Below are positions 3,001-31,751 of a stretch of 40,997 nt of DNA, in pieces. Both the position numbers and the translations under genes were made by a program. Position 1 is the stretch's first letter. Each line of letters starts with the position of its first letter. Origin of the DNA: a virus; the IMG/VR virus record IMGVR_UViG_3300044715_000358, positions 1 through 40,997 of that record. One strand, given 5' to 3'. The notes under the pieces were generated by a model, which was not told where the DNA came from, ran no database searches, and saw nothing but the letters and a program-made list of their open reading frames with translations.

Positions 3001-6000
3001 ACCTGTCCTATAGGCAACATCTCCTGCTCCACCGTTTCCAGGACCTATTTCTTCTATTGCAGTTTTCAACGTTGCTTCTGTTCCCATCTGTTCGCCGACT
3101 TCAAGAACAACAGTTCCGTCGTCACGAATCTCAACAAGGTGAAGCTTTGAGGGAGGAATCATTATCTTCTGTTCTCCGTCATCGGAGTCGGAACGATACG
3201 ACCAGTCAGGTAATAAAGCTTTACTTCCTGCTGGTACGCGGATTACTATCTTCTTGCCGTCAGAAAAATCTGTTTTGTTTGTTACCAAGGTTCCGGTGCC
3301 TATGCCCATAGTAAATTCTGGGGCATTACCGCTGAGCAGGTCTTCTATATATAGTCCGGAATCCTCATTGCCGTCTAGGTGCATTTCCACCATCTGAGAT
3401 AGTGAAGATTTATCCATTAGCTCAAGAAGAGGAATGTAAAAGTTCTCCACTTGCTCCTCTACTGAAGCCTCGTGCTGGTTTAGGCCATCAGGCAAGATGC
3501 CATTTTTTTTAAGGCGAGTGTTTCTTCTTTGTATTGCTCGTGCAGAAGCCATTCCCTCAGAATGGCCGGCCATCATGTTGATGACGTCAGTTTCGCCACT
3601 GCCCATTTCAACAAAAGCAATCTTTTCTGCTGTTGTTGCGCCTTCTAATAGGCGAGCCCTTTCTTGTGTGGCAAAGGTATGTGCTCCATCTTTGCCCTTA
3701 TGACTATTAAATTTCTTTGGCTTGACTCTGTCCTGTTTTTTACGTTCAGCACTAGTCTTCGGCTTGCGAATCTCTTTGAATTTTGAGTTAAATTCTTTAC
3801 GAGCATCTTCCTTAGAAACAGAGTCAGGACCTTCCGTCCTTCTCTTTACATACTCGTCGCGATACATGTCGCGTACTTCTTTTCTGCGAATACGTTCTGG
3901 GCCATCAATCCCTTCGGATGTAGATAGTTCTTCCCAGTCTGAGGAAAACTTAACAAGCTCGTCAAGGTCCATGTCTTTTGCGCGCTCTGTTGCGCCTTCT
4001 ACGTACTCGCGATGACGGAGCTCTTTTATTTTTTCAGGAGAAAGAGTTCCTCTTGATTCGCGTTTCTCGTCAATCATTTTCTGAAGTTTTTCCATTGCTT
4101 CAGGACTTCTTCTAACAGTAAATCTTTTTACCCATTCATCGACAACGGCTTTTGTTTGCGCGTCAACAGTGTCTCTGTCCATAACGCTCATCCAGCTTGG
4201 CTCTTCGCCAGCATCATCGGCCGCGTCCAGCATTTCAGTGAGTACGTCAGAGGCTTCTGTTGACTCAGCAAGAAAGTCAATCATTTCCTCTTCTGGCATA
4301 GTTTTGGCAGCTTCTTTTGTGGCCTTTACTTCTGCTCGTTTTTCGCTAGCGTAAGCCTCTCTTGCGTCAGACATTCTTTCTTCTGCCGCCCTAGTGTCGG
4401 CATCAAAAAATTCCTCATCTGGAGAGTCTTCGCCTTCGGCCAGTCTTGCTGCTTCTGCGGCGGCTTCGCGTGCTTCTCTAGCTTCGCGAATTCTTCTAGT
4501 ACCGTCTAGGTGGTCGTCGTAAACTCTTCTAGTAAGAACGCTATCTGCAACTGTTCTATCTGCTGTTATTTTTCCAGAAGCAGCATCATCCATGTACTCA
4601 AGAGCCGCATCTACGTCGTCTCCGAATATTAAACCTGCGCTTCGAAGTGCCCATATTTCTGCACCTATTTCAGCAGCACGTCTTGTGCCGCCATACTCTG
4701 GGTTGTTTTGAACGTCATCAATATATTTCCCTCCCAACAACGCAACAATGTCTCCTCTGGAACGGAGGCTTTTTAATGAATCAAGGTCAATCCCCATATA
4801 GTTTTCATTTATCATTAAATTAACAAGCATGTCGTTATCGAGTTCGGCAACACTCGTAATGGTCTTGGGTCCATTCTTGGTGTTCATAACAAGAGAACCC
4901 CTAGCGTCAAGTTCTCTCTTCATATGTTCAAAAATTGCTGCAGCCTGAATTGAGTGAGCTATCTCGTGCTTCATATCATGGCGGCCAAGACCACGACCGC
5001 CGTCGACCATTGCTATCATCTGACCGGCATAGGCGTTTGAGTTAACAAGAAAATCTTTTACAGTGGAAGACCTGAGCGCCTCAGACATCCCTCCTTCTGC
5101 CCATATTCTGAGTCTTTCATCAGGGGAGAGAGCTGGGAGAAGAGAGTCTTCAAATTCCATTGATTTAGGTATGTCTATGTTGATTGAACCGTAAGGCATA
5201 TTGGTTCTTCTGTCTATGCCGTCTATGCCATACGAAGCTCTGTCTTTGCCGGTTGGATGCATTCTTACTGCCCGGATAGACTTCATGTGTTCAGGATTTT
5301 TGATTACCTCATCAAGGAAAGCCTCAAGGTGCGCACGCTCAAGCTCTCTATATCTTTGAATTTCAATTTTAAGAAACAGCGCTTTTTCTTCATTCGAGCG
5401 AGTGTTCCAGTGTGCGTCGGTATTTTTTAGGCGTGAAGTCATCATTGCTTCAACATCAGCCTCAGTAGGCCTGCCTTCAATCTTTGCCGTTATAACGCCT
5501 GATTGTTCTAGTTTTTCAAACGCCTCGTATAGATGTTCGTTTGTTGCTTTTCTGCTGTCTCTTGTATCAATGTCAAGCTTTTGATAAAGGTCGGTCAAGC
5601 GCGCCTCTTGAGCGTCAATCTCTGCATAAACACGCTCAACGCCGTTGACCATCCAGCGTTCGTTTCTTGCAACACCGTTAGCTTCACGGAACTTACGCCA
5701 TTCACCATGCTTCATTCTGGTTCCGTCTGGGTGATACCAGACGTTGTTGCCAAATATGCCATTCTCCATGTCGAAGAAGAAGTTGGCTACCCCTCTGGTA
5801 AAACCATCAGTACGTCTTGAATCATCGGATGGAATTAGTCTTTGCGCAAGGTTGATTGCCTCAGAAATCATATTTCCTGGAGTTATTCCAAAACAGTTAG
5901 AACCTGTCATGTCAGTGAATTGGTTTGCCGCTGGAGTCCCAGGAGGACAACGCATCTTCCCAAGCTCATCCATAATCACACCAAAGCGAGCGGCTGCTCT

Positions 6001-8468: not shown

Positions 8469-9611
8469 TTATTTATTTCTGCTCAGACGTTCAAGGAAAA
8501 TTGCTGTTTCTGCAATTCTTTCCCAACTTCTATTAACAAGACCCGATGAATGCTTTTCATCATCCAGAGACTTAATCAAGAACGGTGCATGAAGTGGGTC
8601 TTTACTCCACTCGATAGACGCATCTTTGAATTCGTATAGTGGGTCATTGAAAACTTGCAAACTCTTTACATCGACTGCTTCTTCAGCTGCCGACTCTGCA
8701 TCCGATGCTATTTCGCCCATTTCTTCCAGGACTATCTTCATCTTTGTGATGAGCATCTTTGATGCTTCTTGAGCCTTTGTAGAAGCCTCTTGCAAGGCGT
8801 TTGGCTCATCACGAAGAACCTGAAGCCAGTTGGCCAAGTAGTGGGCGTGGTCTTCTCTTGGTTCCGCAGAAAGCCCGAACATTGCAAGCAAGAATGCTGA
8901 ACCAAATTCTGCAATGAGTTCTTCTCTTGCATACTCTGGTGAGCCAAACTGGTTCATGTTTTTTCTGTCAAGCCTTGACGAATGGCCGGTCCAGTGGACA
9001 AGCTCGTGAGCAAGAGTTCCATAATAGCCCTCTGGTGTCTTGAAGAGTTCAAATGGAGGCATAACAACATGGTCTTCACGAGGAGAGTAGTAAGCCCTGC
9101 TTCCGTCTCCCGTGTTGATTGTTGCACCAATTTCCTTGATTGCGTCCTCAAGTTTTCCGACTCTTTGCTCTGGAGTAAGAGCATCGGTTGGAAGCTTCAA
9201 GAATTCTTCGCGGTCAATACCCTCAACCTGGTCGAGGTTGAACACGTGTGCGGTTGTGAAATAGATACCCTTAGACTTGCGAACCTTCTTGCCTGTATCT
9301 GGGTCAATTTCATCTCCAAACATCGTTTTAGGCATAAGAATCGCAGTGGCTTTTTCACCCTTCTTTACGCTTCCGCCGAGCTTCTTCCATTGCTGGAATC
9401 CGCCCCAATGAGGAGTTGCGTAGCCCTTTTCTTCTGCTGCAAGCATGAGAGCAAAGAGGTTTCCGCCTGAGTACATATTCTTTGTAGAAGCGTTTCTCGG
9501 CATATTGCCGGCCTTGTGCCACGGTGCTTCCCACTTGCCACCATCTTTTTGTGACTTTTCAATCATGTTGATGAGATGGCTTGTGAGGTTTTGGTAGTAC
9601 TCTTCTGCTTT
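8469..9611 (-). other. ArdC-like antirestriction/zincin module at the C-terminus of polyprotein A
   Basis: Residues 3793-4172, following RLSSG at 3788. The N-terminal part has the ArdC single-strand-DNA-binding pattern (Y-Y-Q-N-L-T ... W-E-A-P-W-H ... N ... Y-x-G-x-N ... W-G-G-F-Q-Q-W ... V-K-K-G-E-K-A), then F-F-T-T-A-H-V-F-N-L-D-Q. A zinc site H-E-L-V-H (3994-3998) follows, with a downstream E-E-L-I-A-E-F-G-S-A. ArdC of plasmids protects entering DNA from restriction, and relatives occur in phages. A packaged copy would be present at the moment of DNA entry. The last 60 residues are not recognised. Confidence 0.85.
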
Positions 9612-12600
9612 TCCTGAAGAAAGTCTTGTGCCTTCTGGTACTCCAAAGTCAATTCCAGTTACTGGAACAGCCTTCTTTTTTCCGCCAGCCTTGCTGATAG
9701 AAGCTTCAACTTTAAGAAGTCGTCGATTTATGTCGTCACCCATTCCGTATGGACCTTCGGTCCAGCCCGGCATCGCGCTCATCATTTCTTCAAGCTGTGG
9801 ATGAAGTGTTCCGAGTCGGCCGTCTTCTCCACCGATTCCGCCTTGGTATGCCTTATCGATTTTAATCATTGCAGCAGCAATTTTGTCATCTATTGCTTGC
9901 ACCCAGTAGTTGTCCTCGGTGTTCCCCCACTTCTTGATTGCGTCTGCTCTTTCTCCCTTGAGTCTTTCAATCTTGGAAAGATTGTCTTCTATCTCTTCAA
10001 GTGTTTCATCCAGTTTTTCTCTTGCTATTTCGAAATGTCTTTCTACATCATCAATGTAGGAATCTAGTCGAACAAACGAATCAATCATTTCTTCAATTTC
10101 TTCCAGTGGGAATCCAGCTTTTACTAGTTCGTCTTGGTAGTCGTACACGCTAAATCCTTGAGTGTTTTTGCGATTCATTGTGAAAAGTTCGGAAATTGCT
10201 TGTCTTGTCTTGAGCGCTTTTTCAACATCTTCTAAATTTCTATGTGGAGTCTTTCTTTGAATCAGCGGCTCCCTGTCGAATCCAGGATTAGCGGGTGTTG
10301 CATCTTTTGCGGCTTGACTAATATTGCTTGGAACAAGCTTCCCGTTTTCGTCTTTGAATGGAAGGCTTTCTCCGCTTGAAAGTCGAGAAGTATTGCCTTC
10401 TCTACGAGCAGCAGCATCGTTCATAGCGTCAGCTCTTCTGCTTGAAGATGTTCTTGCTACAAACCTTTGACCTGAAGACATTCTTGGCGCACCGGGAACA
10501 GCAGAGCTAAGGTTGTCAACATATCCGCCAGTTTCGTCCTTGGGGAAAAGTTCGTCTTGACTTATTTCTGGGTATCCAGACCTTGCGAGAGCATCGTTCA
10601 CTCGCCCAAGCAGTTCAGAAAGTTTAGCATCGCTAATCATTCCGTCTTCCTTCATGTCACCCTTGATGGATACGCGACCTTCTTTGATTCGCTTTTCCCA
10701 TGCTTGCTTGCGGCCAAAAGAAGCAGTAATTGCCTCAATCAGAACAGCTACTGAATTGGGAACGCCTTCTTTGTTCATTTTGTCTTTTATTCTCAACAAA
10801 GCGGCATCGGAAAGCATTCTTGAGTCATATTCGGCAGCCAATGAATCAAATCTTGAATCACCAAGACTTGCCATTGCTTCTTTCATGTTCTTAAACTTTC
10901 CAGAAGCAACAAGAGCATGCATAAACTCGTCGGAAATTCCCAATTTTTTAAGGTCACTTTTTGTTGGTGCCCTTGTGACCGACAAAGGAGTCAGTCCTAC
11001 TTTTGCACTAACTTCATTCATTGCTTCAATAAGCCTGTTCAGCTCTTCAGTTGAAGGTTCTGGATTTTTAGAATCTCTTTCAACCCCAAGAATGTCCATC
11101 ATGTTTGAAGCAGTAACGCTATGTCCACGCTTAATCCACTTTGCTGCAAATTCCTTGTCAGCCATTACGGTTTTTTCGCCAACTCTTGCCTGAGATGGTG
11201 CTCTCGTTGGCTCTAGCTGTTCTGACCTTCTTGCGGCTCGTGGTGCTACTGCAAATTCTGAATCCACTACTGGGTTCCTGAACGAGCCACTACGAGCATT
11301 CCACTTAGGGTTGTCAAAAATTGCTTCCGAGTTAAAACGCTCTACTGGAGATTCGTAAACAGGCTCTGGTGGGTTTTTGCCTCTTGCTAGTTCAGCATCA
11401 AATTGTTCTCTTGAAAGACTGTCCCATTTTTCTTTAGACCAGTTAACCCTGCCTTGTTCGTCAAGGTCATATTCCGGGGTAGCGATATCGCTATGGCGAA
11501 CCCACTTTGGAGCACCATCAAATCCCCAGATTCTTGTTACGTCCTCATTACCAAGCTGGCCAGCCTCTAGGTAATGTTTTCCTTCCTTGAGGTCGTCAAG
11601 CATGTCTGCAGCCGTTCCCGCCATGATGTATACGGGCTTGCCGTCAAGCATGTCTTGCGCATCTTTTTCTGGTATGCCAAGAATTGAAGAAATACGTTGA
11701 GCGTCTCCAATTTCGCGAAGAGTTCTGATGGCATCTTCTTCGTTTACTTCAATAAAGTCAAGAAGCCTGCCTGCGTCAACGGGCCAGCCGTTGTTTGACG
11801 AATATTCCATATCTGGATTAGCAATAATCTTTTTTGCAACTTCTGCATTAAGAATATGAGATTCCTTACCCTTTGGAACAGAACCAAGTATGCCCAGCAT
11901 GTCGGACGGGATTACTGCGGTACCCGGGTCACTGTGGAACGCATCCAACGATGCGCGGACCTGTTCTCTGCTGTTGTACTTGCCGCTGCCGGTTGGAGGT
12001 GGTCCAAAGTATTCTCCAGAAGAAAGTCTTCTTTGGATTCGTGAACCCGACTCGCCATCTGGCGCAAAACGGGCTCCAGAATAGAACCTGTACGGGCGAG
12101 TGTAACCGTCGTCCGTTTGGCTATTCTCTAGCCATTTGGGGAGGTTGTTCCATTCTTGCAATGCCTCAAGGACATACTTACCAAGTGGTGCTTCTTTTTC
12201 TTCGGCAACTTCAAAAACATCTTTGTTAAAGAATTCCACAAACATTTGCGTGTCATCATCGTCTTCGCGTATTTGTTTTAACGCTTTAATTATGTCTTCT
12301 TTTGGAAGGCCTTCTAAGTCGCGTAATTGCTTATAGTATGGCTCGTATGCTGAAGGTCTTTGCGTGTTTTCAAAAATGTCTGTTATTTCTGAAAGATTTT
12401 CTGCAGTAAATTCCCATGGCGATGGAGGGTTTTGGCCCCATGTTTCATGAGAGCTCCAAAAGTCGGAAAGGAATTCATCTGTTTCTTCTGGGAAATCCCT
12501 CCATGAATCAGATATAGACCTGTAATCGTCGCTTGCCATGTCTATCCACTTATCGGAGTCGTCGTCTGGTGGGTTGTCGAGATAGAATCCAGAACCACCA

Positions 12601-15600
12601 GCAGAAAGTCTTTCACCAGAAGAGAATTCTGCTGCTGCAGGTCCCTCACGGCGCTTGCCTGGAATTGTTTGAGCACGGAGCCTATTGCCATCAGCAAAGT
12701 TTTGACGGTCTTCATCGCTCCATGGACGCTGTCCACGAGCACGACTGTTCTTGCCCTTGCCCTGTCTTCTTGCAATGCTTCTTCCAGAAGACAACCTGGC
12801 GGAACGAGCGTTTGGCTTCTCGTCTGCATCTGTTGTGTGGTTAAAAACCCAATCGAGTGAACCGAGGTCAATTTCTTCTTCTGCTCTAGTTACAGCAACA
12901 TAAGACAACCTAAGTTCCTGCTCGTTTGGCATAACCCATTCTTCGAGTTCTTCGTCAAATTTTGGCTTTCTGAAGTCTGACCAAATTTTCACTTTTCCAG
13001 ATTCAAGGCCTTTTGATGTATGTGCTGTTTGTATCTTTACATAATCGTTAGGGTCTAGCTTTTCTATGTCTTCTTTTCTTGTGAGAATATTGTCTAAAGC
13101 ATTACGTAGTCCTGGTATTGAATTCTTTTCCAATAAACCATCGAGCATGTTTAGTCTGTTATTGTCCGCAGAAGCAACTTCTTTTTTAAATTCTTCGTAC
13201 GTTGTTATTCCTTCAAGGTCCGCGCTGAATTCTGGCCTACTTGTCATTCTCTCTCCGCGAGAATTTGTCCAATAGGGTTCGCCTTTTTCGGCATTCTGCA
13301 TCCACTCAATATTGTCAATAAAGTTTTGTAAATCTTTTTTGAAATTTGCGCTTCCGTAAACTTTCTTTTGTCCGCCACCCTCTTCAATTACTTCCATGGT
13401 TGCGGCTATGGCTCCACCATTGCTGCGACAAAGAATCATTGTTGCGTCTAAAACGCTCATTTCGGTAACAACTTCACCTGGAACATCAACACGAGAGCCG
13501 TTTTTGCCTGCTCTTGTCTTTTTTCCGGTCATGCGTTCTTTTACCCCAAGCAAAGTCAAGAACCTGTTGCCTATGCCTGCTATCTTCGCTCCGAATCTGT
13601 ACGATTCGGTTATCGGCATATCGTATTCAGCTTCTACTGCATCCAAGGTTGAGCCATCAGCTCCACGCCAAGCATTGATTGCCTGATTGGTGTCACCAAT
13701 GTATATTTTTTGTGCAGACTTAGAATCTTTCATCATTTTTGCAAACACAGGGTTAATATCCTGAGCTTCGTCAACCATGATTACGTTTACGCCATCAGTG
13801 CCACCAAAACTTGCAACATCTGGTTTAGTCAGTGCCCACATCTTTGTTAGATGGTTAGACTCAAGACCAAGCATTCCTTGCTTTTTTAAGTTGTCCCTAT
13901 CCTGTTGCAGGTCTTCCCACATCTTGTTGGCATATTTTAATACGTTAGGCATTATTGGGCTGTCTTCAGGAATTGCTAAAGGTCCATTAAATTTCCCAGT
14001 AAAATGCTGTGGTCCTATTTTTTCGTCTGAACTTATTGAGTAAGCGTTTACGCCTTTAGCAACAATTTTGTAAATATCTGTGGGAGTTAATTCAAGTGGT
14101 GCATCACCATCTCGCGGTATAAAAGCTCCCTTGATTCCAAGATATGCTGCCTTGCCTACGTACGACCTAACCGAGTCATCCATGGACGCTTTTCCGGCTT
14201 CATACAGTTTGGTTTTTAGACCAGGCCTAAGACCTGGAGAACCACCAGCCCCTATCATGGCTTTAAACGCAATACCGTCCATCGTCATAACGGAAACATT
14301 GTCACCCATTCCGCGAGCTTCAGCATCGCTCTTGGCGTCTCTGTTGAAAACTAAATAAAGCACTCTTGCGCTTGGGTCTTGAGCGGCCAAACGATTGGCA
14401 AAACTTATTACTGTTGTTGTTTTACCTGTTGCTGCTAAAGCTCCAACTTTTACGTCAGAGCCTGTCATCATGGCGTCAATCGCATCAGCCTGTTCTGGGT
14501 TTGGCTTAAACTCGGCTTCAGGGTAATCGTATGGTACAACTTCGTCTATGCCTATTATCTTGCGAGGCTTACCAGAGTACTTTTCCAGTCTTGGACCCTT
14601 GCTTGGCCTTTTTGGGGTTGGAGCACCGGCTGATGTTGGTTTAGAACCTCTTCCAACAATCTCGGCCAATTTGGCCCACTGCGCATCACTTAGTTTTCCA
14701 CGATTTCTCTCATACTGACCAACAACGCTTTCGATGAAAGTATTTCCTCGCATGACTCTTGCGCCATCGATTAAGCCTTCTTCATCTTTTCTTGCTGCTC
14801 TTTTTGGCTTTGGTGGTGCAAAACCACCAGAAGAGAACCTTTCTCCGCCGCTTTCTTCTGAAGAGAAGTCTGGGTGAAGTTGAGGGAAATCTGCAAGATA
14901 TCCATCGATGTTGAGTCCGCCGTCTTCCAGGACGCTAACCATGCTTGGGTTATTTTCTGAAAGTCTGTCCTTGATTCCGTTGAAGACTGCAAGCTGTTCC
15001 CTGTCTGACATGTCATCAAATGAACGAGCTTCCGCAATATTGAACCTGCCCGAACCGCCAGAAGACAGTCTATTTCCTCTGTTGAGTGGCTTTACACCGT
15101 ATCTTTTTGCATTTTCAATGTCAAGAGAGAATTTTGAACTTGTAGCACCCTTTTCCACCATCTCGGTGATGTGTTTGTCGAAAGCAATTTGCTTGAGGCG
15201 CTTTAGTTCTCTTTCGGCTGTGTCGATTATCGAACCTGGAGCCCTTGTTCCAGTGCCTTCAAGCTCCCATTGAATAGCGGTCTCAATATCAAACGCCGCC
15301 CGACCAACTTCGCTACTTCTAAAATAGAACCGGTCATTAATTTTTGCCCAGTCTTCTATGCTGAAGTCAGCAATGCTCCACTTGGGCTCTGGGGTCATTG
15401 TTCCTATTTCAACATATGGAGGTATTGCGTGTGAAACCAGTCCCTCAATCTTGTCGATATTAAAGCTTCTGTAGGCACCATTGCCATCGTCTGCGGTTTC
15501 GTCCCAGGCTCTAAAGAAGGCAATGCCTTTTTTGCTTGTCCCAAATGATTCTGGATACACAGAGCGCTGTTTACCATCGTAGGTAAAATGAAGAATGTCT

Positions 15601-18600
15601 TCTCTAGACGCAGCACTTCTTGCGCCATTACTGTTGTTAGCAACTGCTTCAGCTACGCGTCTTGCGTTTGAGCCTAAGTCATCAGGTCTACGAACCAAAT
15701 CTTCCGCGCGCAAGCTCTCAGGTTTTGGATTTACTGCCTCAGCCCAGGAGAACTCTTCCTGCATGCTGCGGTTGGTGGCCAGTTGAAGCCCATGTTCTCT
15801 TGCTTCTTTTGCTAAATCCTGAATAGATGTTCGTTGTGTTCTGTCAGAAAGAAGCGCTTCAACGACTGCTTCGTCGATATTTGCAAAAGCATCTTCCGCA
15901 TAGTAGTCATGGAAAGAGTGTCCGTAAGCGTCTCTTCCACGGAACCTTTCACCGTCTAGTGCTGAACGCGGAACACCATTTTCTACCATCCAGTCGTAAT
16001 AGTTTATACCACCTGAGGAAAGACGAGAATCTTCTGCATGGCTTTCGTTCCATTGCTCGGCGTAATCCGCGAGTTCGCTTGGGGTCATTTCTGAAAGCAT
16101 TGCATTTTGCTCTGCCATCTCCCTGTAGAACTTAGTGATGCGGTCTTCTTTTGCTTTCCGCCTATCTTGGGCTCTGGCAAATTGAGCCCCCCGTTCTTCC
16201 AGTTCAGCTTTTCGCCTGTCTTGGGCTCTGGCAAATTGAGCCCCCAGTTCTTGCTTTTCTTCGTCGGTAAGTTCCCTACCAGAGGAGAATCTTGGGTCCC
16301 TGTCTCTCCAGGTTTCTTCGTCCATCCAAGCGGCGTAATCGGCTGCTTCTTCTGGAGTCATGTTGTTAAACTTGTCGGTTACAGTCTGTGCGCGAGCATA
16401 GTCATCCGCCATTGCCTGCAGGTCTTCGTCAGTCATTTCTGGTTGTGACTCTAAGTAGCGGTCGTAGTCTTCCCGTGCGTCGCCTACATCTTTTTTGACT
16501 TGCTCAAGAATTGGTTCAACACTTTCTGCCCTGACATTTAGCGCGTAGGCCAAGTCTTCCGCAGTCATTCCTTCATAGTCTCCTGCAAAAATAAGCTCAG
16601 AAAAGATTGCTTCTTTCAAGTCTTCTGGGTTTTCGTAAGAATTTATGTAGTTATCTTTTCTACTTCCACGCTTAGCACCAGAAGAGAATCTGCCCATTTC
16701 GTCAAATTTTGGACCTGACGTGCTGTATCTTCCACCGTAACCAAGACCCGACTGTTGTAGCCATGCTTGGTAAGCGGGGTCATCTCCACCGTATGGACCA
16801 AATTCAGGCCTGTTTACATACAAGAATGAACGAATAGCATTCATGTATGACTCTTTGTAATTGTCAGAGTACAGGTCAGAATTAAGAACGCTGTCTATTT
16901 CGCTTGTCAATAGAGGGGTATGAGCCATGTACCAAGACTTGTAATCAACGGTCCCCTTCTTGGCGAAGAAGTCTTTCTTTGAAGGCTTTCCTGGCTTATC
17001 AAAGAACTGCATGAATTGATTAGTTTCGTTTTGGTAGTTGTCCTCGAAACGCAATTTTGCAACGTTTGTAGCAAACTCTCTTGCGCGATACCAATCTTCA
17101 CTTTGCCACTTTGGGTCACCGTTGTACATCGGTACTTCAACAAACCAGCCATTGTTCTTTATGAAGGCAGCAACATCTTTTTCATATGCATCACGTTCTG
17201 CTTTTTCAGCAGATGAATCCATCCTGAGTGGATTGCGCTCAACATGGCGCATCTCCCTGAGGCCTGATGCACCTTTCTTGTCAAAATCTATACCAGAAGA
17301 GAATCTGTTGCTTTCTAATTCCATCTCTCCGGCGACTGACAGGTTGAATCCATTAGCACGCTCAAGTGCGTTTTCAAGAGCTATCTCACGCTCGTAATTG
17401 CCGCCGTCATGGTTTTTTGACATCTCTTCGATTAATGGAACTGCGCCACCAAACCTCTTGTTGTATTCTGCGTCTCCAAGGTATTCTCTCGCAATGTTTT
17501 CTGTTCCATCAGCAAAACTTAATATCTCATCATTTGCCTGTTGTAACGCATCTCCTGCTTCGTCTTCGTCCATTCCATCAAGGTCCGGCATTGTTGGCTT
17601 GGTCAGACTGCTTACTTCTGAGGCTGCGTTCTTAAACTGTGCAGCGTGTTCTGCTTGGTCTTCGGCATCCATCTCAGCAAGCATTTCGTATGCTTTTTCG
17701 AGTTCATCGTCAGCTGTACGACCATCTCTGAGCCCCTTGATTATTGGGTGGTCTTCCTCGTCGATAACACCTCTTGCAAGTAAGAAATCAGCGAGCTCCC
17801 TAGGGTCGTCTCCTGCTTCATCCTCTGCGGCATCTATCCATGTTCTCTGACCAGAGGAAAGACGTCCGAATGGGTTTTCTACAGCCGTAAACTGGGTTGA
17901 ACGCCTTTCTGCTCTGCTTTCTGCTTCAGCTTCAGCATCCATCTCGGCAAGCATTGAAAATGTTTTTTCAAACTCGTCGTCGGCGGTTAAACGGTTTCTG
18001 AGCTTCTTGACTCTTGGGTGGTCTTCTTCAAGTATTCCTTGTTCAATCAAGAAATCAGCAAGTTTTTTAGGGTCATTTCCTGCTTCTTTTTCTGCAGCAT
18101 CTACCCAATATCCTTCACCGGAGGAGAATCTTGGGTCCCTGTCTCTCCAGGTTTCTTCGTCCATCCAAGCGGCATAATCTGCGGCATCTTCTGGAGTCAT
18201 GTCTGCAAAGTCTGCGCTTCTTTCTGCGTCAGCTTTTCTTATTTCTACGTCCTCTTTGCCTATTTCTTCGCTGATTAGTTTGTAGTTTCTTTCTGCCCAC
18301 TTCTTAGCCGCGCTACTTGACGTGAAAACTTTGTCATGTTCGTATTCGTTAGCATTTTGTCCACCGTTACGTCTAGCGTCCGCAAATCTAGTTACTACAA
18401 ATCCATCTTTGGAGTTGCCTTGTATTAGGTAACCACCATCAATATCCGGCGCGTCCATCTCAATGCCGTCATCAGTTTTTGTCCACTCACCAGAGGAAAG
18501 GCGCTCTGCCGAAGACGGAGTTATCTTGTCGAGACTAAAAAGCTTTCTTGCCCCAGTGTCGTCTTGGGCAGTCAAGTTCCACTTACCAGTTTTATTGTTC

Positions 18601-20987
18601 TTCTCAATTTTTACTGGAATTACTTCTCTGTTTTTTCCACTGTAGTCAAAACGAAGCATCTGATTGGAGCGCATTGCTGTCTGTATTGCGTCACGTAGGT
18701 TTTCGTAGTCTTTGTCGTTGGCGTGGTCTGGTTCAAGATAAGCAATTCCGCCATCAAGTTTTGCTCCAGGAGCAACTGTTCCACCGCTTCGGACATTGCT
18801 TATATAGCCAGAAGGAGTTTTCTTCTTGTTCTTCTCAAATTCCCTTTTAAGAACAGCCCACTGTTTATCGGACAAGCTACTAGGAAATGAACCCTTCAAT
18901 ATTTTTTGAACCAATGGGTTGGAACTATCCTTGACGACGTCAAGAATTTCTTTTTTCTCGGCTTCACTTAAACCTGACCCGCCGTACGTTGCTGTGGATT
19001 CTGGGAATCTTCTGCCACCGCCGCTGCCACGTTCATTTCTAATTATTCGGAAACCGTCTCTTGTTGCGTCATAGATGCCATCTCCGTCTTCTTCATCAAA
19101 TGATATTTCCATTTGACCGTCCGACATTATGACGCGCCCAGAAGAAAGACGAGTTTCAGATTGACGTGCTGCTGCTCTTTCTCTTTCAAGTTTTTTGGCT
19201 TGCTCGACGGCTTCTTTTCCTACTGGGTTTGTAGCACTAGCACCTCTTGCCTTATCCATTTCCCGTTGCTTAGCAAGGTCGCGAGCACGTGAAGAATCAT
19301 CTCCGCCAGAAGAAAGTCTTGTAGCCTTCTTTGGAGCTTTAGGGGCTTTAGGTGTCTTTGGAGCATCGATTGAGTTGGGTCCACTTGGTGTTGGGTCCGG
19401 CTGGGACAGAGACATGCCGCGACCGTCTGTAAGGCCTTCACCTACAATGCCGTTATTGTTCCTGTCCGGTGCGGTTTTTGGGTCCCACATCGTTCCGTCG
19501 GCGAGTCTTACTACAGCTCCACGGGAACCAATTCCTCGACCTCTTGATGCGAGGTTAGGATTTCTATCACGCCTATTTTTGCCAATGTTTGGTCTATCTA
19601 CCGCACGGCCAACCATGTTGCCGATACTGCGCAACACACCCTTTGTGGCAATGTCCATTGCGTCAAGGAACTCGTTATCAAGAGACTTAACAACGATGCC
19701 GTCTTCAGTAACAGTTGCATCAACTCTGTAGTAATCAAGAATTGGGTCAATTGCTTGCTTAACTTCAAATGCGTTGTTTATGTCAACGGGGATTATGTAT
19801 GTCGACTTCTCTTCGATAATCTTTTCAAGATTACTGATGACATTGTTGAGCGTAGATATATCAACTTGTTGAGCTGGTATCTGCTGGTTAAAACCTACCC
19901 AGGAAAAGTCATCAAACGAAATCAAAGATTTTCCAGTATCGAACCCGCCGAACTGTTGAGGCATTCCTGGCATTGTTGGGATACTTGACTCTGGAGTTGG
20001 CTGTGTGTTTATCTTCTCTGGCTTACCAAACATGAATTCATTGTTTGCATAGTTGAAAGGAAGTTTATAAGTACTAGAAATTCCATCAGTAGTAATTCTG
20101 TCGAATACAACTATGTTTTCTATTACGGAACGAACAATAATATTTGAACCAGTCCTGTCGACCAATTCTCTTCTAATTGCTACAAGCATTGGGTTTTCCG
20201 GCATTGATGGAACTTCTGGCTTCACGGACTCTCTTGGGGCGGTTGGTTGTGTTGGTTTTGATACAGAAGGCATTCCTGGTCCACCAGATGGCATCACCAT
20301 TGGCATTTGCGCAGGCATGCCCATTGGCATTCCGGGTCCACACTTTTCATCTGTGGTGGACGCAATCGTCTTCAACGCATCTAAAACTGAAGAAAGCTCA
20401 TTTATGTTGAGGCCGTCGATAGATGGTTGTTCGTTTACTAAAACTGTTGATGACTGGTCTTCGGACTTTATTGAAATTGTTCCTGTCAGCTGGTTGGCAC
20501 CATGAAGAACTGGAGAAACTTCGTAAAGCTCAACTTCATACAGAATGTTTGCTTGCATCTGTGGGTCAAACTTGGCATTAATCGTCTTGTAGCCGATTGA
20601 CCATTCTTGTTCTTCGCCAAAAAATGCCACATTTGCAAAAGCCTCGCGGCCCTTTTCTGACTTCAAGTTGAACTGAACGCGGGCATACAAGCCACCAATT
20701 CCGGCAGCCTTCATTTTGTTAGGAAGACGAGGGTCACTTGGCTGAACCTCATACATATCAAGGACTTTACCGATTGGGTCGTTCCAGTTATGACCCCAAA
20801 CAACGCGAGGCTTACGCCTAATTAGGCTCTTGCCAAAAGCTCCAGGGGCGCAAACATCGCCGACTGAGTCCTTGTTACCAATACCTGCGACAAAACATTC
20901 AACGATGCCTTCGGCTTCGTCAAGATTCACCATTCCTTGCGGTGCAGCCTTGTACTGAATGTCGGAATTTTTCTTAGAAGAGGGCAT
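8469..20987 (-). CDS. Giant polyprotein A: prohead protease fused to SF1 helicase, ArdC-like and other modules
   Basis: 4172 residues from ATG 20987, chosen because AAGGAG lies just upstream (20992-20997); an in-frame ATG at 21077 would add 30 residues but has no such site. Order: HK97-type prohead protease (1-175); Pro/Met-rich linker and unknown domain (176-556); then pieces separated by R-[L/F/M]-S-S-G at residues 557, 613, 829, 953, 1042, 1228, 1433, 1566, 1655, 1973, 2050, 2731, 2987, 3502, 3535 and 3788, with variants RLSAG (2793), EFSSG (2787) and RFYSG (2967). Recognised pieces: WYL-like domains (about 763-824 and 1793-1850), duplicated W-(V/I)-D-A-A-E domains (958-1115), UvrD-type helicase (2055-2730), coiled coil (3540-3787) and ArdC-like protein (3793-4172). 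Phage proteases of this family are normally about 200 residues. It follows the portal gene by 99 bases, the usual protease position. Self-cleavage into virion cargo is inferred. Confidence 0.9.
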   Translation of the reverse strand: MPSSKKNSDIQYKAAPQGMVNLDEAEGIVECFVAGIGNKDSVGDVCAPGAFGKSLIRRKPRVVWGHNWNDPIGKVLDMYEVQPSDPRLPNKMKAAGIGGLYARVQFNLKSEKGREAFANVAFFGEEQEWSIGYKTINAKFDPQMQANILYEVELYEVSPVLHGANQLTGTISIKSEDQSSTVLVNEQPSIDGLNINELSSVLDALKTIASTTDEKCGPGMPMGMPAQMPMVMPSGGPGMPSVSKPTQPTAPRESVKPEVPSMPENPMLVAIRRELVDRTGSNIIVRSVIENIVVFDRITTDGISSTYKLPFNYANNEFMFGKPEKINTQPTPESSIPTMPGMPQQFGGFDTGKSLISFDDFSWVGFNQQIPAQQVDISTLNNVISNLEKIIEEKSTYIIPVDINNAFEVKQAIDPILDYYRVDATVTEDGIVVKSLDNEFLDAMDIATKGVLRSIGNMVGRAVDRPNIGKNRRDRNPNLASRGRGIGSRGAVVRLADGTMWDPKTAPDRNNNGIVGEGLTDGRGMSLSQPDPTPSGPNSIDAPKTPKAPKAPKKATRLSSGGDDSSRARDLAKQREMDKARGASATNPVGKEAVEQAKKLERERAAARQSETRLSSGRVIMSDGQMEISFDEEDGDGIYDATRDGFRIIRNERGSGGGRRFPESTATYGGSGLSEAEKKEILDVVKDSSNPLVQKILKGSFPSSLSDKQWAVLKREFEKNKKKTPSGYISNVRSGGTVAPGAKLDGGIAYLEPDHANDKDYENLRDAIQTAMRSNQMLRFDYSGKNREVIPVKIEKNNKTGKWNLTAQDDTGARKLFSLDKITPSSAERLSSGEWTKTDDGIEMDAPDIDGGYLIQGNSKDGFVVTRFADARRNGGQNANEYEHDKVFTSSSAAKKWAERNYKLISEEIGKEDVEIRKADAERSADFADMTPEDAADYAAWMDEETWRDRDPRFSSGEGYWVDAAEKEAGNDPKKLADFLIEQGILEEDHPRVKKLRNRLTADDEFEKTFSMLAEMDAEAEAESRAERRSTQFTAVENPFGRLSSGQRTWIDAAEDEAGDDPRELADFLLARGVIDEEDHPIIKGLRDGRTADDELEKAYEMLAEMDAEDQAEHAAQFKNAASEVSSLTKPTMPDLDGMDEDEAGDALQQANDEILSFADGTENIAREYLGDAEYNKRFGGAVPLIEEMSKNHDGGNYEREIALENALERANGFNLSVAGEMELESNRFSSGIDFDKKGASGLREMRHVERNPLRMDSSAEKAERDAYEKDVAAFIKNNGWFVEVPMYNGDPKWQSEDWYRAREFATNVAKLRFEDNYQNETNQFMQFFDKPGKPSKKDFFAKKGTVDYKSWYMAHTPLLTSEIDSVLNSDLYSDNYKESYMNAIRSFLYVNRPEFGPYGGDDPAYQAWLQQSGLGYGGRYSTSGPKFDEMGRFSSGAKRGSRKDNYINSYENPEDLKEAIFSELIFAGDYEGMTAEDLAYALNVRAESVEPILEQVKKDVGDAREDYDRYLESQPEMTDEDLQAMADDYARAQTVTDKFNNMTPEEAADYAAWMDEETWRDRDPRFSSGRELTDEEKQELGAQFARAQDRRKAELEERGAQFARAQDRRKAKEDRITKFYREMAEQNAMLSEMTPSELADYAEQWNESHAEDSRLSSGGINYYDWMVENGVPRSALDGERFRGRDAYGHSFHDYYAEDAFANIDEAVVEALLSDRTQRTSIQDLAKEAREHGLQLATNRSMQEEFSWAEAVNPKPESLRAEDLVRRPDDLGSNARRVAEAVANNSNGARSAASREDILHFTYDGKQRSVYPESFGTSKKGIAFFRAWDETADDGNGAYRSFNIDKIEGLVSHAIPPYVEIGTMTPEPKWSIADFSIEDWAKINDRFYFRSSEVGRAAFDIETAIQWELEGTGTRAPGSIIDTAERELKRLKQIAFDKHITEMVEKGATSSKFSLDIENAKRYGVKPLNRGNRLSSGGSGRFNIAEARSFDDMSDREQLAVFNGIKDRLSENNPSMVSVLEDGGLNIDGYLADFPQLHPDFSSEESGGERFSSGGFAPPKPKRAARKDEEGLIDGARVMRGNTFIESVVGQYERNRGKLSDAQWAKLAEIVGRGSKPTSAGAPTPKRPSKGPRLEKYSGKPRKIIGIDEVVPYDYPEAEFKPNPEQADAIDAMMTGSDVKVGALAATGKTTTVISFANRLAAQDPSARVLYLVFNRDAKSDAEARGMGDNVSVMTMDGIAFKAMIGAGGSPGLRPGLKTKLYEAGKASMDDSVRSYVGKAAYLGIKGAFIPRDGDAPLELTPTDIYKIVAKGVNAYSISSDEKIGPQHFTGKFNGPLAIPEDSPIMPNVLKYANKMWEDLQQDRDNLKKQGMLGLESNHLTKMWALTKPDVASFGGTDGVNVIMVDEAQDINPVFAKMMKDSKSAQKIYIGDTNQAINAWRGADGSTLDAVEAEYDMPITESYRFGAKIAGIGNRFLTLLGVKERMTGKKTRAGKNGSRVDVPGEVVTEMSVLDATMILCRSNGGAIAATMEVIEEGGGQKKVYGSANFKKDLQNFIDNIEWMQNAEKGEPYWTNSRGERMTSRPEFSADLEGITTYEEFKKEVASADNNRLNMLDGLLEKNSIPGLRNALDNILTRKEDIEKLDPNDYVKIQTAHTSKGLESGKVKIWSDFRKPKFDEELEEWVMPNEQELRLSYVAVTRAEEEIDLGSLDWVFNHTTDADEKPNARSARLSSGRSIARRQGKGKNSRARGQRPWSDEDRQNFADGNRLRAQTIPGKRREGPAAAEFSSGERLSAGGSGFYLDNPPDDDSDKWIDMASDDYRSISDSWRDFPEETDEFLSDFWSSHETWGQNPPSPWEFTAENLSEITDIFENTQRPSAYEPYYKQLRDLEGLPKEDIIKALKQIREDDDDTQMFVEFFNKDVFEVAEEKEAPLGKYVLEALQEWNNLPKWLENSQTDDGYTRPYRFYSGARFAPDGESGSRIQRRLSSGEYFGPPPTGSGKYNSREQVRASLDAFHSDPGTAVIPSDMLGILGSVPKGKESHILNAEVAKKIIANPDMEYSSNNGWPVDAGRLLDFIEVNEEDAIRTLREIGDAQRISSILGIPEKDAQDMLDGKPVYIMAGTAADMLDDLKEGKHYLEAGQLGNEDVTRIWGFDGAPKWVRHSDIATPEYDLDEQGRVNWSKEKWDSLSREQFDAELARGKNPPEPVYESPVERFNSEAIFDNPKWNARSGSFRNPVVDSEFAVAPRAARRSEQLEPTRAPSQARVGEKTVMADKEFAAKWIKRGHSVTASNMMDILGVERDSKNPEPSTEELNRLIEAMNEVSAKVGLTPLSVTRAPTKSDLKKLGISDEFMHALVASGKFKNMKEAMASLGDSRFDSLAAEYDSRMLSDAALLRIKDKMNKEGVPNSVAVLIEAITASFGRKQAWEKRIKEGRVSIKGDMKEDGMISDAKLSELLGRVNDALARSGYPEISQDELFPKDETGGYVDNLSSAVPGAPRMSSGQRFVARTSSSRRADAMNDAAARREGNTSRLSSGESLPFKDENGKLVPSNISQAAKDATPANPGFDREPLIQRKTPHRNLEDVEKALKTRQAISELFTMNRKNTQGFSVYDYQDELVKAGFPLEEIEEMIDSFVRLDSYIDDVERHFEIAREKLDETLEEIEDNLSKIERLKGERADAIKKWGNTEDNYWVQAIDDKIAAAMIKIDKAYQGGIGGEDGRLGTLHPQLEEMMSAMPGWTEGPYGMGDDINRRLLKVEASISKAGGKKKAVPVTGIDFGVPEGTRLSSGKAEEYYQNLTSHLINMIEKSQKDGGKWEAPWHKAGNMPRNASTKNMYSGGNLFALMLAAEEKGYATPHWGGFQQWKKLGGSVKKGEKATAILMPKTMFGDEIDPDTGKKVRKSKGIYFTTAHVFNLDQVEGIDREEFLKLPTDALTPEQRVGKLEDAIKEIGATINTGDGSRAYYSPREDHVVMPPFELFKTPEGYYGTLAHELVHWTGHSSRLDRKNMNQFGSPEYAREELIAEFGSAFLLAMFGLSAEPREDHAHYLANWLQVLRDEPNALQEASTKAQEASKMLITKMKIVLEEMGEIASDAESAAEEAVDVKSLQVFNDPLYEFKDASIEWSKDPLHAPFLIKSLDDEKHSSGLVNRSWERIAETAIFLERLSRNK
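12798..14825 (-). other. SF1 (UvrD/PcrA-type) DNA helicase module of polyprotein A
   Basis: Residues 2055-2730, exactly between RFSSG (2050) and RLSSG (2731). All helicase motifs are present in order: Q motif near P-N-P-E-Q-A-D-A-I; Walker A A-A-T-G-K-T-T-T (GKT from 2188); motif II D-E-A-Q-D (2406-2410); motif III G-D-T-N-Q-A-I-N-A-W-R-G; motif IV E-S-Y-R-F; motif V T-A-H-T-S-K-G-L-E; and motif VI Y-V-A-V-T-R-A-E-E (arginine 2701). A basic N-terminal extension precedes the core. About 675 residues is the normal size of a free helicase. It should unwind DNA using ATP; being cargo of a head polyprotein suggests action on the DNA during packaging or after entry. Confidence 0.92.
15438..15611 (-). 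other. WYL-like domain 2 of polyprotein A
   Basis: Residues about 1793-1850 within the piece 1660-1972. The strands I-L-H-F-T-Y-D-G-K-Q-R-S-V-Y-P, G-I-A-F-F-R-A-W and A-Y-R-S-F-N-I-D-K-I-E follow the WYL layout more closely than copy 1. The flanking sequences are not recognised. Confidence 0.55.
16159..16245 (-). repeat. Tandem 54-base repeat in polyprotein A
   Basis: A 33-base unit at 16159-16191 recurs at 16213-16245 with one change, 54 bases apart. It encodes two copies of G-A-Q-F-A-R-A-Q-D-R-R-K-A, 18 residues apart, within the small piece 1571-1654. Likely a recent tandem duplication in a helical segment. Confidence 0.85.
16282..18173 (-). repeat. 53-base direct repeat at two motif borders (16282-16334 and 18121-18173)
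   Basis: Bases 18121-18173 and 16282-16334 are identical over 53 positions, and the similarity continues beyond. They encode A-A-W-M-D-E-E-T-W-R-D-R-D-P-R-F-S leading into the RFSSG motif, preceded in both copies by an M-T-P-E-(D/E)-A-A-D-Y segment. The near-perfect DNA identity points to a recent duplication or recombination between modules. Confidence 0.85.
17643..18116 (-). repeat. Duplicated W-(V/I)-D-A-A-E domain in polyprotein A
   Basis: Two successive pieces, each starting directly after an R-[L/F]-S-S-G motif (residues about 958-1030 and 1047-1115), share the order W-(V/I)-D-A-A-E-x-E-A-G-x-D-P-x-x-L-A-D-F-L, then (D/E)-E-D-H-P, then T-A-D-D-E-(F/L)-E-K, then M-L-A-E-M-D-A-E. They look like paralogous copies of one small acidic helical protein. 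Function not recognised. Confidence 0.75.
18516..18701 (-). other. WYL-like domain 1 of polyprotein A
   Basis: Residues about 763-824, within the piece 618-828. The strand M-L-R-F-D-Y-S-G-K-N-R-E-V-I-P-V, then a W-N-L-T strand, then A-R-K-L-F-S-L-D-K-I, follows the layout of WYL domains (start ...F-x-Y...R...P, end ...F-x-L-D-R-I). WYL domains sense nucleic acid or nucleotides in bacterial regulators such as PafBC and BrxR. No helix-turn-helix is fused to it here. Confidence 0.5.
20463..20987 (-). other. HK97-family prohead protease module of polyprotein A
   Basis: Residues 1-175. Matches the herpesvirus-assemblin-like U35 fold: a region with G-D-x-x-x-P-G-A-F-G-K-S-L, the histidine block V-V-W-G-H66-N-W-N-D-P-I-G, the serine block E-W-S130-I-G-Y-K, and the closing strand E-L-Y-E-V-S-P-V (153-160). 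These give the expected His and Ser of the catalytic site. Such proteases cut scaffold and capsid precursors inside the prohead. Being at the extreme N-terminus of a 4172-residue chain, it is well placed to cut the rest of it. Confidence 0.93.
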
Positions 20988-21086: not shown

Positions 21087-23159
21087 CTATCCTGTGATGT
21101 ACTTCCCGTACATCCACGCCCTGCGAGCTTCTTCTTCGGCAATTTCAGGAATTCTCTTTGCGAGCACGTTTGTGTACAAAGAAACAATGTTTGACCTGAA
21201 GGCTCCAGCTCTCTGGTCTTCGTCAGCGACATTCATGGAAGAAAGCATTAACGAAGTTATTTCATCGGTCAAATCTTGGTTAAGACTTTTTATTCTTGCC
21301 ATTTGAGAATCAACCTGAGCAATAATGTCAGATTCCATGGTGGAGTTTTTTGCAGACTTCTTTCCCATAGGGGAAGAAGCTTTAAACGACTCTTTGACGA
21401 TGGCTGTCACGACCGGCTTGATGTCTTCATCAAACTGTCTATCCCATGTATCCGTTGGGAGAACAGATGGGATGTCTAGGGTTCCGGCAAACAAAGCTTT
21501 CTTAGCTTTTGCTCCACTTGATTTTTCAAGAACAACTCTTTGCTGTCTTTCCAAAACTCTTTCCATGCTTCTGACAAGAATCTCTTCCCATCTTTCCATC
21601 TCTAGTTTTTGAGAATCAAATTCCGTATCGAGGGACTTTGTTTCAAGTTCGGAAGACTCAGCACTTGTTGCACCCATAGGCATAGGTTCTGCGCCCGTCA
21701 TCATGCCGGGAGGCATGCCTGGAATTGGGGACTGAGCCAGTTCCCCGCCAGGAGGAACGGTTGAGCCAACTTCTGCAAGTGCTCCGGCCATTGTGTTTGG
21801 GTCCACAGGTGGTTGTCCGGGCGCTGGAGGCATCCCTGGCATCGCTGGGGCACCAGGTGGCATGCCAGGCATTCCTGGCTGTCCTGGGGCTCCAGGAACT
21901 TGAACCTGGGACGGTTCTTCCATCTTCTTCTTGGTGTTAGAGATTGGGATGAGGTTTGGATTGGCAAGCAACGAGTCAGCCAAATCGCTTTCGGTTTCTT
22001 TACGACCTGAACCAATTCGGTATTCATTGTTGCTGATTAGTCCTGCATTGAACTCATCCATCAAGTAGCGATGACGCTCCTGCTCGTACAGCATCAAAAT
22101 GGGCACTTGGTCCACGTTAAAGTCAACGTAGTTATCTACGTCAAGTTCGTCTAAGGCACGAGACAAAATTTCCAAGTGAGGAAGCATTGTTTCCATCCAA
22201 AAGACTCGAATCTCTTCAGAAGCATTGCTGAAAGTTCTTCCTGCAGCGTTTCCGATTACGGATTCAGGAACACCAAAAGAAGCAAGGATTTCTTCTTTTG
22301 TGAGCTGACGCATTTGGATATAGGCGGCATCTCGTGGGTTGGCCGAAGTGTCAATGTAATCAACACCTTCATCGGAAGAGATTACCGAGGTGTATCCAAC
22401 ACGAGACAAGTTTCCACGGAATCTGCTTCTTAGTTCTTCCTTGTCATCGTCATCTATTTCTCCCTTGAGAACAAGAAGACCACCAGGTCTTCCGTCATTG
22501 AGCAAATAGTTTCTGTTGTAAAGCTTTGCCAAGTTTTCTATTTCAATGGCTACTCCACATGCTTCAAGTGGTGTCAACGATAGATACGGGTCAATTGGGT
22601 GCGGTCTTCTTACCCAGCAAACATCTTCCGGTTTTAGAAAGATTTTGTTTCCAGTTGGCATCTGAACTTCATATCCAGAAACAAACTTTTTTGGGTCAGG
22701 GATTGGCGAAGTTGATTGAGGCGGGAGAAGGTTGAGGCCAATAATGCCCCCGTCTCTACCTCTCACTTTTTCGATAAAAGCACCTCTTGTGCCAAGAAGA
22801 AGCTGAGCAGAAAGTCTGTACCTAAAGATGTAAGAGTTCTCACCAATGTTTGACTTGCTGTTCAAAATGTTAAGCAATGGTACTTTTTTGGCTTCTTTTA
22901 TGGAAAGTATTTCTCCGTGTGGGGAGTTATCTTTTCTGAGAATAATAGGAAGCCTGGCTTGGTTTCCGGCAATGGCATCAATACACCTAGATACCCATGT
23001 GACCTTCTGCATACCCTCTCTGTAGGCGCGCTCAATATCCCATGAGTCCCTGTACGGTTTGCCTGCATATCCAGGGTTTTGTGCTACTGGAGCACCTGGG
23101 CCAATGTCTTTTTGCGCTTGGTTATTTAGCGACTTGTTTGTAGAAGGATTCCACGCCAT
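21087..23159 (-). CDS. Portal protein with long C-terminal extension
   Basis: 690 residues. Residues about 40-430 match the HK97-type portal fold (N-terminal W-V-S-R-C-I-D-A-I-A, central K-P-E-D-V-C-W-V, later R-D-A-A-Y-I-Q-M-R ... E-I-L-A-S-F-G-V-P, and E-I-R-V-F-W). The dodecameric portal is the DNA entry channel and motor dock. Residues about 440-530 are a Pro/Gly/Met-rich linker with many P-G-M-P repeats, and 540-690 form an extra helical domain not usual in this family. ATG 23159 lies eight bases after the stop of a small membrane gene; no strong ribosome site is seen, so coupled translation is likely. Polyprotein A with the protease follows, giving the standard portal-protease order. 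Confidence 0.9.
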   Translation of the reverse strand: MAWNPSTNKSLNNQAQKDIGPGAPVAQNPGYAGKPYRDSWDIERAYREGMQKVTWVSRCIDAIAGNQARLPIILRKDNSPHGEILSIKEAKKVPLLNILNSKSNIGENSYIFRYRLSAQLLLGTRGAFIEKVRGRDGGIIGLNLLPPQSTSPIPDPKKFVSGYEVQMPTGNKIFLKPEDVCWVRRPHPIDPYLSLTPLEACGVAIEIENLAKLYNRNYLLNDGRPGGLLVLKGEIDDDDKEELRSRFRGNLSRVGYTSVISSDEGVDYIDTSANPRDAAYIQMRQLTKEEILASFGVPESVIGNAAGRTFSNASEEIRVFWMETMLPHLEILSRALDELDVDNYVDFNVDQVPILMLYEQERHRYLMDEFNAGLISNNEYRIGSGRKETESDLADSLLANPNLIPISNTKKKMEEPSQVQVPGAPGQPGMPGMPPGAPAMPGMPPAPGQPPVDPNTMAGALAEVGSTVPPGGELAQSPIPGMPPGMMTGAEPMPMGATSAESSELETKSLDTEFDSQKLEMERWEEILVRSMERVLERQQRVVLEKSSGAKAKKALFAGTLDIPSVLPTDTWDRQFDEDIKPVVTAIVKESFKASSPMGKKSAKNSTMESDIIAQVDSQMARIKSLNQDLTDEITSLMLSSMNVADEDQRAGAFRSNIVSLYTNVLAKRIPEIAEEEARRAWMYGKYITG

Positions 23160-31642: not shown

Positions 31643-31751
31643 AGAAGCAAAAGAACTAGAAAAAATAACAGCTGAACGCGATGAACTAAAACGCATCGTA
31701 GATGAGCTACGCGCCGAGGTTAGTCGGCTCTCACAGATTGCAAAATACTAA
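31632..31751 (+). CDS. 39-residue coiled-coil protein
   Basis: ATG 31632 to TAA 31749-31751, overlapping the membrane gene by 11 bases and the next start as TAATG. The whole protein is one heptad-patterned helix (E-E-A-K-E-L-E-K-I-T-A-E-R-D-E-L-K-R-I-V). Tight coupling on both sides supports it as real. Possibly an oligomerisation partner of its neighbours. Confidence 0.65.
   Translation: MSPEEAKELEKITAERDELKRIVDELRAEVSRLSQIAKY

Follow-up and report, generated by a model that had tools for sequence, protein, structure and literature searches.

Why does a head-maturation protease of family S78 stand at the front of a 4,172-residue phage chain, and what is the five-residue peptide that recurs along it? 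The question is raised by polyprotein 1, encoded in the full 40,997-base record of an uncultured virus (IMG/VR record IMGVR_UViG_3300044715_000358), a stretch that we refer to as the window. Its open reading frame (ORF) runs on the minus strand from an ATG at 20987, with AAGGAG just upstream, to 8469 and specifies 464.3 kDa of protein; an alternative upstream TTG start would give 4,202 amino acids (aa), the numbering in which Pfam positions for this chain are given. On that numbering, Pfam matches S78 at 58–201, UvrD at 2193–2735, ArdC-N at 3826–3930 and MPTase-PolyVal at 3976–4100, together with a WYL match at 796–853 that falls below the Pfam cut-off.

A protease-led chain divided by a recurrent tag

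The recurrent peptide, or tag, R[LFM]SSG occurs in 16 exact copies. By chance, 2,000 residue shuffles give a mean of 0.0145 copies and never more than 1, and a first-order Markov model gives 0.097. Variants (EFSSG and RLSAG) are also present. An earlier note on this DNA had described a 4,172-residue, protease-led chain with 16 exact copies and variants, and the ORF, the counts and the shuffles confirm that description. Because the 16 copies are spelled in 15 different ways in nucleotides, the tag is not a DNA repeat, which rules out a DNA repeat or recombination site as its nature. No exact copy lies inside a Pfam-matched domain. Cuts after the second Ser of each exact copy would yield 17 segments of 33–681 aa, the first of 560 aa and most of them without any match. 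The idea that copies fall at the borders of whole, recognisable proteins is borne out for a few of the 17 segments only.

Comparison with relatives shows how these segments evolve. Between the window and a related polyprotein (L020), a 681-aa helicase segment is exchanged for about 180 aa of other sequence; homology stops 12 aa past one tag and resumes at the next. Across 22 polyproteins, with tags masked before BLAST, 16.5% of 1,920 ends of high-scoring segment pairs lie no more than 10 aa from a tag in both partners, whereas circular shifts give an expectation of 0.84% (maximum 2.0%; 0 of 500 as high), a contrast that carries no strict probability since the pairs are related. Masking the tag excludes a BLAST extension artefact at these breakpoints. 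As the breakpoints fall at tags in both partners, modules swap as cassettes. The five tag positions have pairwise identities of 0.55, 0.66, 0.82, 0.83 and 0.87, compared with 0.27–0.48 for the ten residues on either side and a background of 0.46, and disorder propensity is higher in the flanks of 253 tag sites than at random positions (0.181 vs 0.133; 79% above the random median). On whether tags lie in linkers, an AlphaFold2 (AF2) model of residues 3005–4202 (4,202-aa numbering) was left unused, its predicted local distance difference test score (pLDDT) being 39 from five sequences.

All 13 of the polyprotein 1 sequences compared have a Pfam match to S78, seven each contain UvrD, ArdC-N and MPTase, six contain sigma-70 region 4, and other domains are fewer. 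Among 17 polyprotein 2 and similar chains, we found an exonuclease in three, a head-morphogenesis (PHROG) domain in five and ArdC/MPTase in one. Such cargo (helicase, ArdC antirestriction, exonuclease, sigma-70 region 4) would suit the start of infection. Relatives of the helicase are ordinary annotated helicase genes in other phages (197 phage records, all below 60% identity). For two window modules, no stand-alone genes were found among 9 and 8 viral-contig loci, all of which are on protease-carrying contigs.

The leading domain has the fold of an assemblin-type protease. His66, Ser130 and E156 (numbered from the ATG at 20987) are invariant in 43 aligned sequences, and H66 and S130 are probably catalytic by analogy with the family. 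An AF2 model of the protease (pLDDT 82.5) has T4 gp21 (5jbl_A) as its top VIA-align match (Z 11.0, 125 residues, 2.8 Å), with herpesvirus proteases at Z 5.4–10.0.

Tag letters across genes and lineages

Two other large genes in the window, which the earlier note does not mention as tagged, carry the tag. Polyprotein 2, the gene downstream, has four complete copies and a fifth that the window end truncates. The tape-measure gene, on the opposite strand to the polyproteins, has two exact copies plus RMSTG; a six-frame scan of the window finds one more copy, in a 29-aa reading frame. Polyprotein 2 measures 2,917 aa in record G003, whose polyprotein 1 equals that of the window in length and tag count. 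When nested ORFs are excluded, [RK][LFM]SSG is limited to polyprotein 1, polyprotein 2 and the tape measure in three relatives (91, 119 and 148 kb); keeping them adds a single copy in G010, in an antisense ORF within polyprotein 1. The tape measure is identified from gene order, with a PHROG tape-measure match in two of five sequences. Separate tagged cargo genes occur in three records, with a zeta-toxin-like domain after the tag (G022, G019) or an exonuclease between two tags (G015). Loci L351 and L353 have a head-side gene with a zeta-toxin-like domain and the lineage tag just ahead of it.

The protease is encoded by 557 viral-contig stretches, of which the best 80 were kept, and two more scans added others. 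Within long protease ORFs, the letters of the tag differ by lineage (R[LF]SSG, KLSSG, GLSSG, SLSSG, GLRSST, GMRS, GF[AG]SR and GFSSST) around a common core, [LFM]-x-S. Under our own count thresholds, a tag class could be assigned in 32 of 38 non-redundant protease ORFs of at least 1,200 aa from uncultured phages. The suggested analogy with HK97, cut after a lysine, does not extend to these chains, and cutting after a basic residue is rejected as a general rule, as K, G, S or other residues stand in place of R in whole lineages. Tag class follows the protease tree: over nine states (including 'none') it changes 15 times, whereas shuffles average 25.4 changes and 0 of 200 come as low; with untagged rows left out, there are 10 changes. 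The shuffles overstate the significance of this comparison because related sequences are not independent. Fusion of S78 to the chain seems not to be essential, judging from L251, in which an unfused S78 (491 aa stop to stop) sits beside a 2,367-aa ORF (L251 7944–16477) and a GS[KR]S[TS]T-like tag has 11 copies across three large ORFs.

The same letters are used in trans, chiefly in polyprotein 2 and the tape measure. We counted four tag classes (R/K, G, S and GxRS) in ORFs other than polyprotein 1. Eight R/K-lineage records contain 34 R/K, 0 G, 1 S and 0 GxRS tags (own class 34/35), three G-lineage records 0, 23, 2 and 0 in the same order (23/25) and two GxRS-lineage records 1, 1, 0 and 14 (14/16); G016, with a weak RGMxS as its own tag, has one R/K tag in trans, and G023 has none. 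Aligned over five lineages, the N-terminal tape-measure site reads RRLSSG, KKLSSG, SRLSSG, GGMNS and SGMRSS at positions no more than three columns apart, GGMNS retaining the core only. Since the tape-measure gene stands apart from the polyproteins and on the opposite strand, the concordance is most simply explained by a recogniser that acts in trans.

Candidate cutters and competing explanations

That the tag is cut at all is likely, judging from these sequence patterns, and the polyprotein reading is well supported by evolution. We consider it probable that these chains are virion-borne polyproteins cut at the tag by a phage-encoded protease, S78 being the likeliest; whether S78 itself is the cutter we see as evenly balanced. 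We envision a set of virion-borne proteins that these phages would make as polyproteins. Polyprotein 1 would put the head-maturation protease first, followed by exchangeable modules for the start of infection, and polyprotein 2 would combine the conserved HExxH domain with additional modules and, in part of the lineages, with a domain of head-morphogenesis type. The border tags, with their [LFM]-x-S core, would be cut in cis and in trans by one phage-encoded protease, which would also cut the tape measure. S78 would read a P3-x-P1 motif, with [LFM] at P3 and the constant Ser at P1, in the manner of SPN3US gp245 (A-x-E) and of T4 gp21, whose site we take to be L-x-E; on this analogy, the bond broken would be that after the second Ser (LSS|G). 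Cutting would presumably occur during head maturation, and the products would ride in the virion. Because one enzyme would read all the sites, a changed taste of the protease would force every site of the genome to change together, giving a concerted lineage code.

Several observations weigh against this scheme. The major capsid protein is the usual S78 substrate, yet the lineage tag is absent from it in 16 of 16 scanned records containing the capsid gene (some of these records being near copies); L-[ST]-S-R does occur near the presumed end of the capsid delta-domain, in LSSG-type lineages and not in the GFAS, GMRS, RGMxS or GSKS lineages. The tape measure, which is no head-interior protein, carries the tag, and the HExxH domain of polyprotein 2 accompanies the tag and so could be the cutter. 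The protease domain is 78–93% identical to that of the window across lineages with different tags, which leaves few residues to explain a change of specificity, and Foldseek found no PDB match to the AF2 model at E ≤ 0.001 (best 1.2e-3). No clear tag class could be assigned to six of the 38 long protease ORFs (L249, L236, L228, L218, L067 and L076), L067 and L076 being cut-off ORFs with two copies of a neighbour's variant; the GxRS class (3 rows) is unclustered on the protease tree (3 changes, shuffled mean 3.0); R/K-lineage polyproteins 1 contain up to 5 G or S variants; and the relatedness of the sequences makes the shuffles look more significant than they are. From the earlier note's reading of a packaged polyprotein, then, we retain the protease-led chain with module-bounding tags, on the strength of concerted switching in cis and trans and of cassette exchange, and hold back on S78 cutting at head maturation, given the untagged capsids, the tagged tape measure and the HExxH domain beside the tag.

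A serious though unlikely contender for the role of cutter is the N-terminal, zincin-like HExxH domain of polyprotein 2, with S78 only maturing the capsid. In all 14 records compared, polyprotein 2 has HExxH at about residues 541–593; the H, E and H of this motif are invariant in 11 aligned sequences, and it recurs in seven further tagged loci (L210, L250, L251, L296, L308, L337 and L339), whereas tagless short-protease relatives (L192, L207, L237, L246 and L256) give weak domain matches and no HExxH. Many zincins cut before Leu, Phe or Met, a preference that would fit R|LSSG, and such a cutter would explain a capsid protein without the tag. Zincin autoproteolysis has also been proposed in polyvalent proteins (Iyer et al. 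2017, PMC5512222). However, HExxH is present in the neighbouring chain of three loci that have a long polyprotein 1 without a clear tag (L228, L236 and L218), the constant Ser two residues past the hydrophobic residue would be left unexplained, and the tagged polyprotein 1 chains are headed by S78 rather than by the HExxH domain; four tagged records (behind L213, L290, L294 and L340) have no domain match, which counts for little as they are fragments. The MPTase-PolyVal domain of polyprotein 1 is unlikely as a universal cutter, as only 7 of 13 sequences have it. With either S78 or HExxH as the enzyme, cutting might instead take place during or after ejection, the chain threading the tail as one polypeptide and only then being cut into working proteins. 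We rate this timing as rather unlikely: tags sit mainly in genes whose products should enter the cell (cargo chains and tape measure), capsid proteins, which stay outside, are untagged, and the giant N4 virion RNA polymerase is packaged unprocessed (PMC5512222), but prohead proteases such as SPN3US gp245 act in head assembly (PMC10052503). The choice of tagged genes would suit processing in the prohead too.

Two explanations dispense with cutting altogether. The tag could be a peptide that docks onto a trans factor, or targets the chain to it (scaffold, portal or chaperone), its drift reflecting co-evolution with that partner. A shared recogniser alone suffices for concerted drift, and T4 and P1 have short capsid-targeting sequences (PMC9024508); the many copies per chain at module borders, the disorder-prone linkers and the breakpoints at the tag make docking improbable, and the tape-measure tag speaks against capsid targeting in particular. 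A protein-level linker that eases module recombination, with no recogniser, would fit the clustering of breakpoints at tags. This we consider very improbable, as 15 spellings in 16 copies offer little DNA homology for recombination and letters that switch by lineage in several separate genes, the tape measure among them, call for a selective agent that these genes share.

For cleavage at the tag by a phage-encoded protease, we advance the fullest version only tentatively: a whole group of uncultured tailed phages may deliver infection-start modules (sigma-like DNA-binding, helicase, antirestriction, exonuclease and others) as protease-bearing polyproteins, with an orthogonal lineage-specific code in three genes, the tape measure among them, processing coupled to ejection, and in each lineage a protease that has co-evolved with its dozens of sites. 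Should the polyprotein reading be right, polyproteins are a means by which tailed phages deliver proteins, nature offers sets of site variants that are mutually distinct, and the separate proteins that a phage carries could be read straight from its sequence. Each tag predicts a fragment end, making the number of injected proteins testable, and the drifting code would document, in nature, how a protease changes together with dozens of its sites.

Known systems, relatives and other features of the window

The components of this system are already known; the multi-gene drifting code is one that we did not meet in the literature searched, which covered few subscription journals. Nor did we come across a phage polyprotein that is headed by a protease and segmented by a tag, or a tag that switches between lineages. 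The same literature yielded no paper that pairs RLSSG with phage or that joins bacteriophage, polyprotein and ejection proteins. The closest architecture is that of polyvalent proteins, very large phage polypeptides of several domains, ArdC-N, MPTase and helicase among them, that have been likened to RNA-virus polyproteins (Iyer et al. 2017, PMC5512222) and are mentioned in a jumbo-phage survey (PMC7824862). The window polypeptide shares their combination of UvrD, ArdC-N and MPTase in a single chain and, judging from cargo and gene order, may likewise be delivered into the host together with the DNA. Some polyvalent proteins have assemblin-like peptidases, which that paper places always at the C terminus (a regularity rather than a defining feature), whereas S78 is N-terminal here and the chain is segmented by a lineage-switching tag that it has in common with the tape measure.

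The protease has the assemblin fold of T4 gp21 and SPN3US gp245. In SPN3US, gp245 cleaves after A-x-E and favours Ser at P1' (PMC10052503), and its targets include packaged, ejected proteins cut at this P3-x-P1 motif. As that paper describes them, the SPN3US substrates are separate genes that mostly lose N-terminal propeptides, the major capsid protein among them; here, by contrast, many sites lie in one protease-headed chain and the capsid protein is untagged. The Pro/Dar system of phage P1 is alike in its prohead protease, its packaged antirestriction proteins and the proteolysis of DarA and capsid proteins (PMC9024508, PMC12810830); it differs in having separate genes, and no recurrent tag is mentioned in the available parts of these papers. 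Eukaryotic RNA-virus polyproteins work in a similar way, with a protease in cis and recurrent junction sites at module borders, but the present chain belongs to a double-stranded DNA tailed phage and has unrelated modules, and we claim no homology.

The nearest cultured S78 relatives in the phage collection, at 35–42% identity, are Bendigovirus (Gordonia phages GMA6, Hanem and kin), Brevibacterium phage Cantare and Streptomyces phage Gilgamesh. Cultured relatives have shorter protease ORFs in which no recurrent tag was found; the exception in length is DalanDe (1,633 aa), where most of the additional residues precede the S78 domain. Between its portal and its related protease, Gilgamesh encodes a protein annotated as hypothetical, about 4,600 residues long (L006 2755–16635), in which no recurrent [LFM]-x-S tag was found. 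Of 31 relatives in genome_contigs, 27 are in actinomycetes (33–43% identity, short ORFs), which identifies no host for this virus. Complete unfused protease ORFs of relatives are often 530–560 aa from stop to stop, near the 560 aa of the first window segment. Homology to the window stops at residue 208–237 in 16 of 24 short protease genes and reaches residue 461 or further in the other 8; the agreement in length, and with it descent of segment 1 from a short protease gene, is thus only suggestive.

Table 1. Positions of features in the window
Feature	Positions	Strand	Length or basis
Polyprotein 1, S78 protease N-terminal	8469..20987	-	4172 aa
S78/assemblin-fold protease domain	20475..20906	-	Pfam, alignments, AF2 model
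Tag copy 1, RLSSG; end of 560-aa protease-containing segment	19305..19319	-	
Tag copy 2, RLSSG	19137..19151	-	
Weak WYL-like module	18519..18692	-	Below Pfam cut-off
Tag copy 3, RLSSG	18489..18503	-	
Tag copy 4, RFSSG	18117..18131	-	
Tag copy 5, RLSSG	17850..17864	-	
Tag copy 6, RFSSG; homology to L023 resumes here	17292..17306	-	
Tag copy 7, RFSSG	16677..16691	-	
Tag copy 8, RFSSG	16278..16292	-	
Tag copy 9, RLSSG	16011..16025	-	
Tag copy 10, RLSSG	15057..15071	-	
Tag copy 11, RFSSG; helicase cassette left border	14826..14840	-	
UvrD/Dda-like helicase module	12873..14501	-	Pfam
Tag copy 12, RLSSG; helicase cassette right border	12783..12797	-	
Variant RLSAG; EFSSG begins six residues upstream	12597..12611	-	
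Tag copy 13, RLSSG	12015..12029	-	
Tag copy 14, RMSSG	10470..10484	-	
Tag copy 15, RLSSG	10371..10385	-	
Tag copy 16, RLSSG; directly precedes ArdC-N	9612..9626	-	
ArdC-N + MPTase-PolyVal zincin module (antirestriction)	8778..9602	-	Pfam
Polyprotein 2, cut off by window end	1..6687	-	
HEIAH in conserved N-terminal domain of polyprotein 2 (rival candidate cutter)	4954..4968	-	
Polyprotein 2 tag RLSSG	2701..2715	-	
Polyprotein 2 tag RLSSG	1993..2007	-	
Polyprotein 2 tag RFSSG	1570..1584	-	
Polyprotein 2 tag RLSSG	886..900	-	
RNase_T/DnaQ-like exonuclease module between two tags, second cut by window end	202..741	-	
Portal gene, directly upstream of polyprotein 1	21087..23159	-	
Tape-measure gene, first 694 aa, tagged	38916..40997	+	
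Tape-measure tag RLSSG near N terminus	39027..39041	+	
Tape-measure tag RLSSG, central linker; RMSTG next at 40647-40661	40596..40610	+	

The N-terminal domain of polyprotein 2 in the window (4600–6687, minus strand) contains RCPPGTPAANQFTD and HExxH, invariant in 11 aligned sequences. In 50,697 phage records, tblastn found nothing that matches it at E 0.001, and the single match to the HExxH domain in a sequence search of the PDB was non-significant (E 0.24). The C terminus of the G003 tape measure (L344 residues 1601–1642) contains SDHVTGRAID followed by H-x-H, a pattern that we take to resemble M15 peptidases and that has no Pfam match; the same protein has a glycine-zipper match at 954–993, below the cut-off. 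Cutting at the central tape-measure tag would release this M15-like C terminus from the N-terminal part. Near the tail genes (30615–33434), the window encodes a ParB_N-like protein (just below the Pfam cut-off) and a PAPS-reductase-domain protein, a block possibly concerned with DNA modification.
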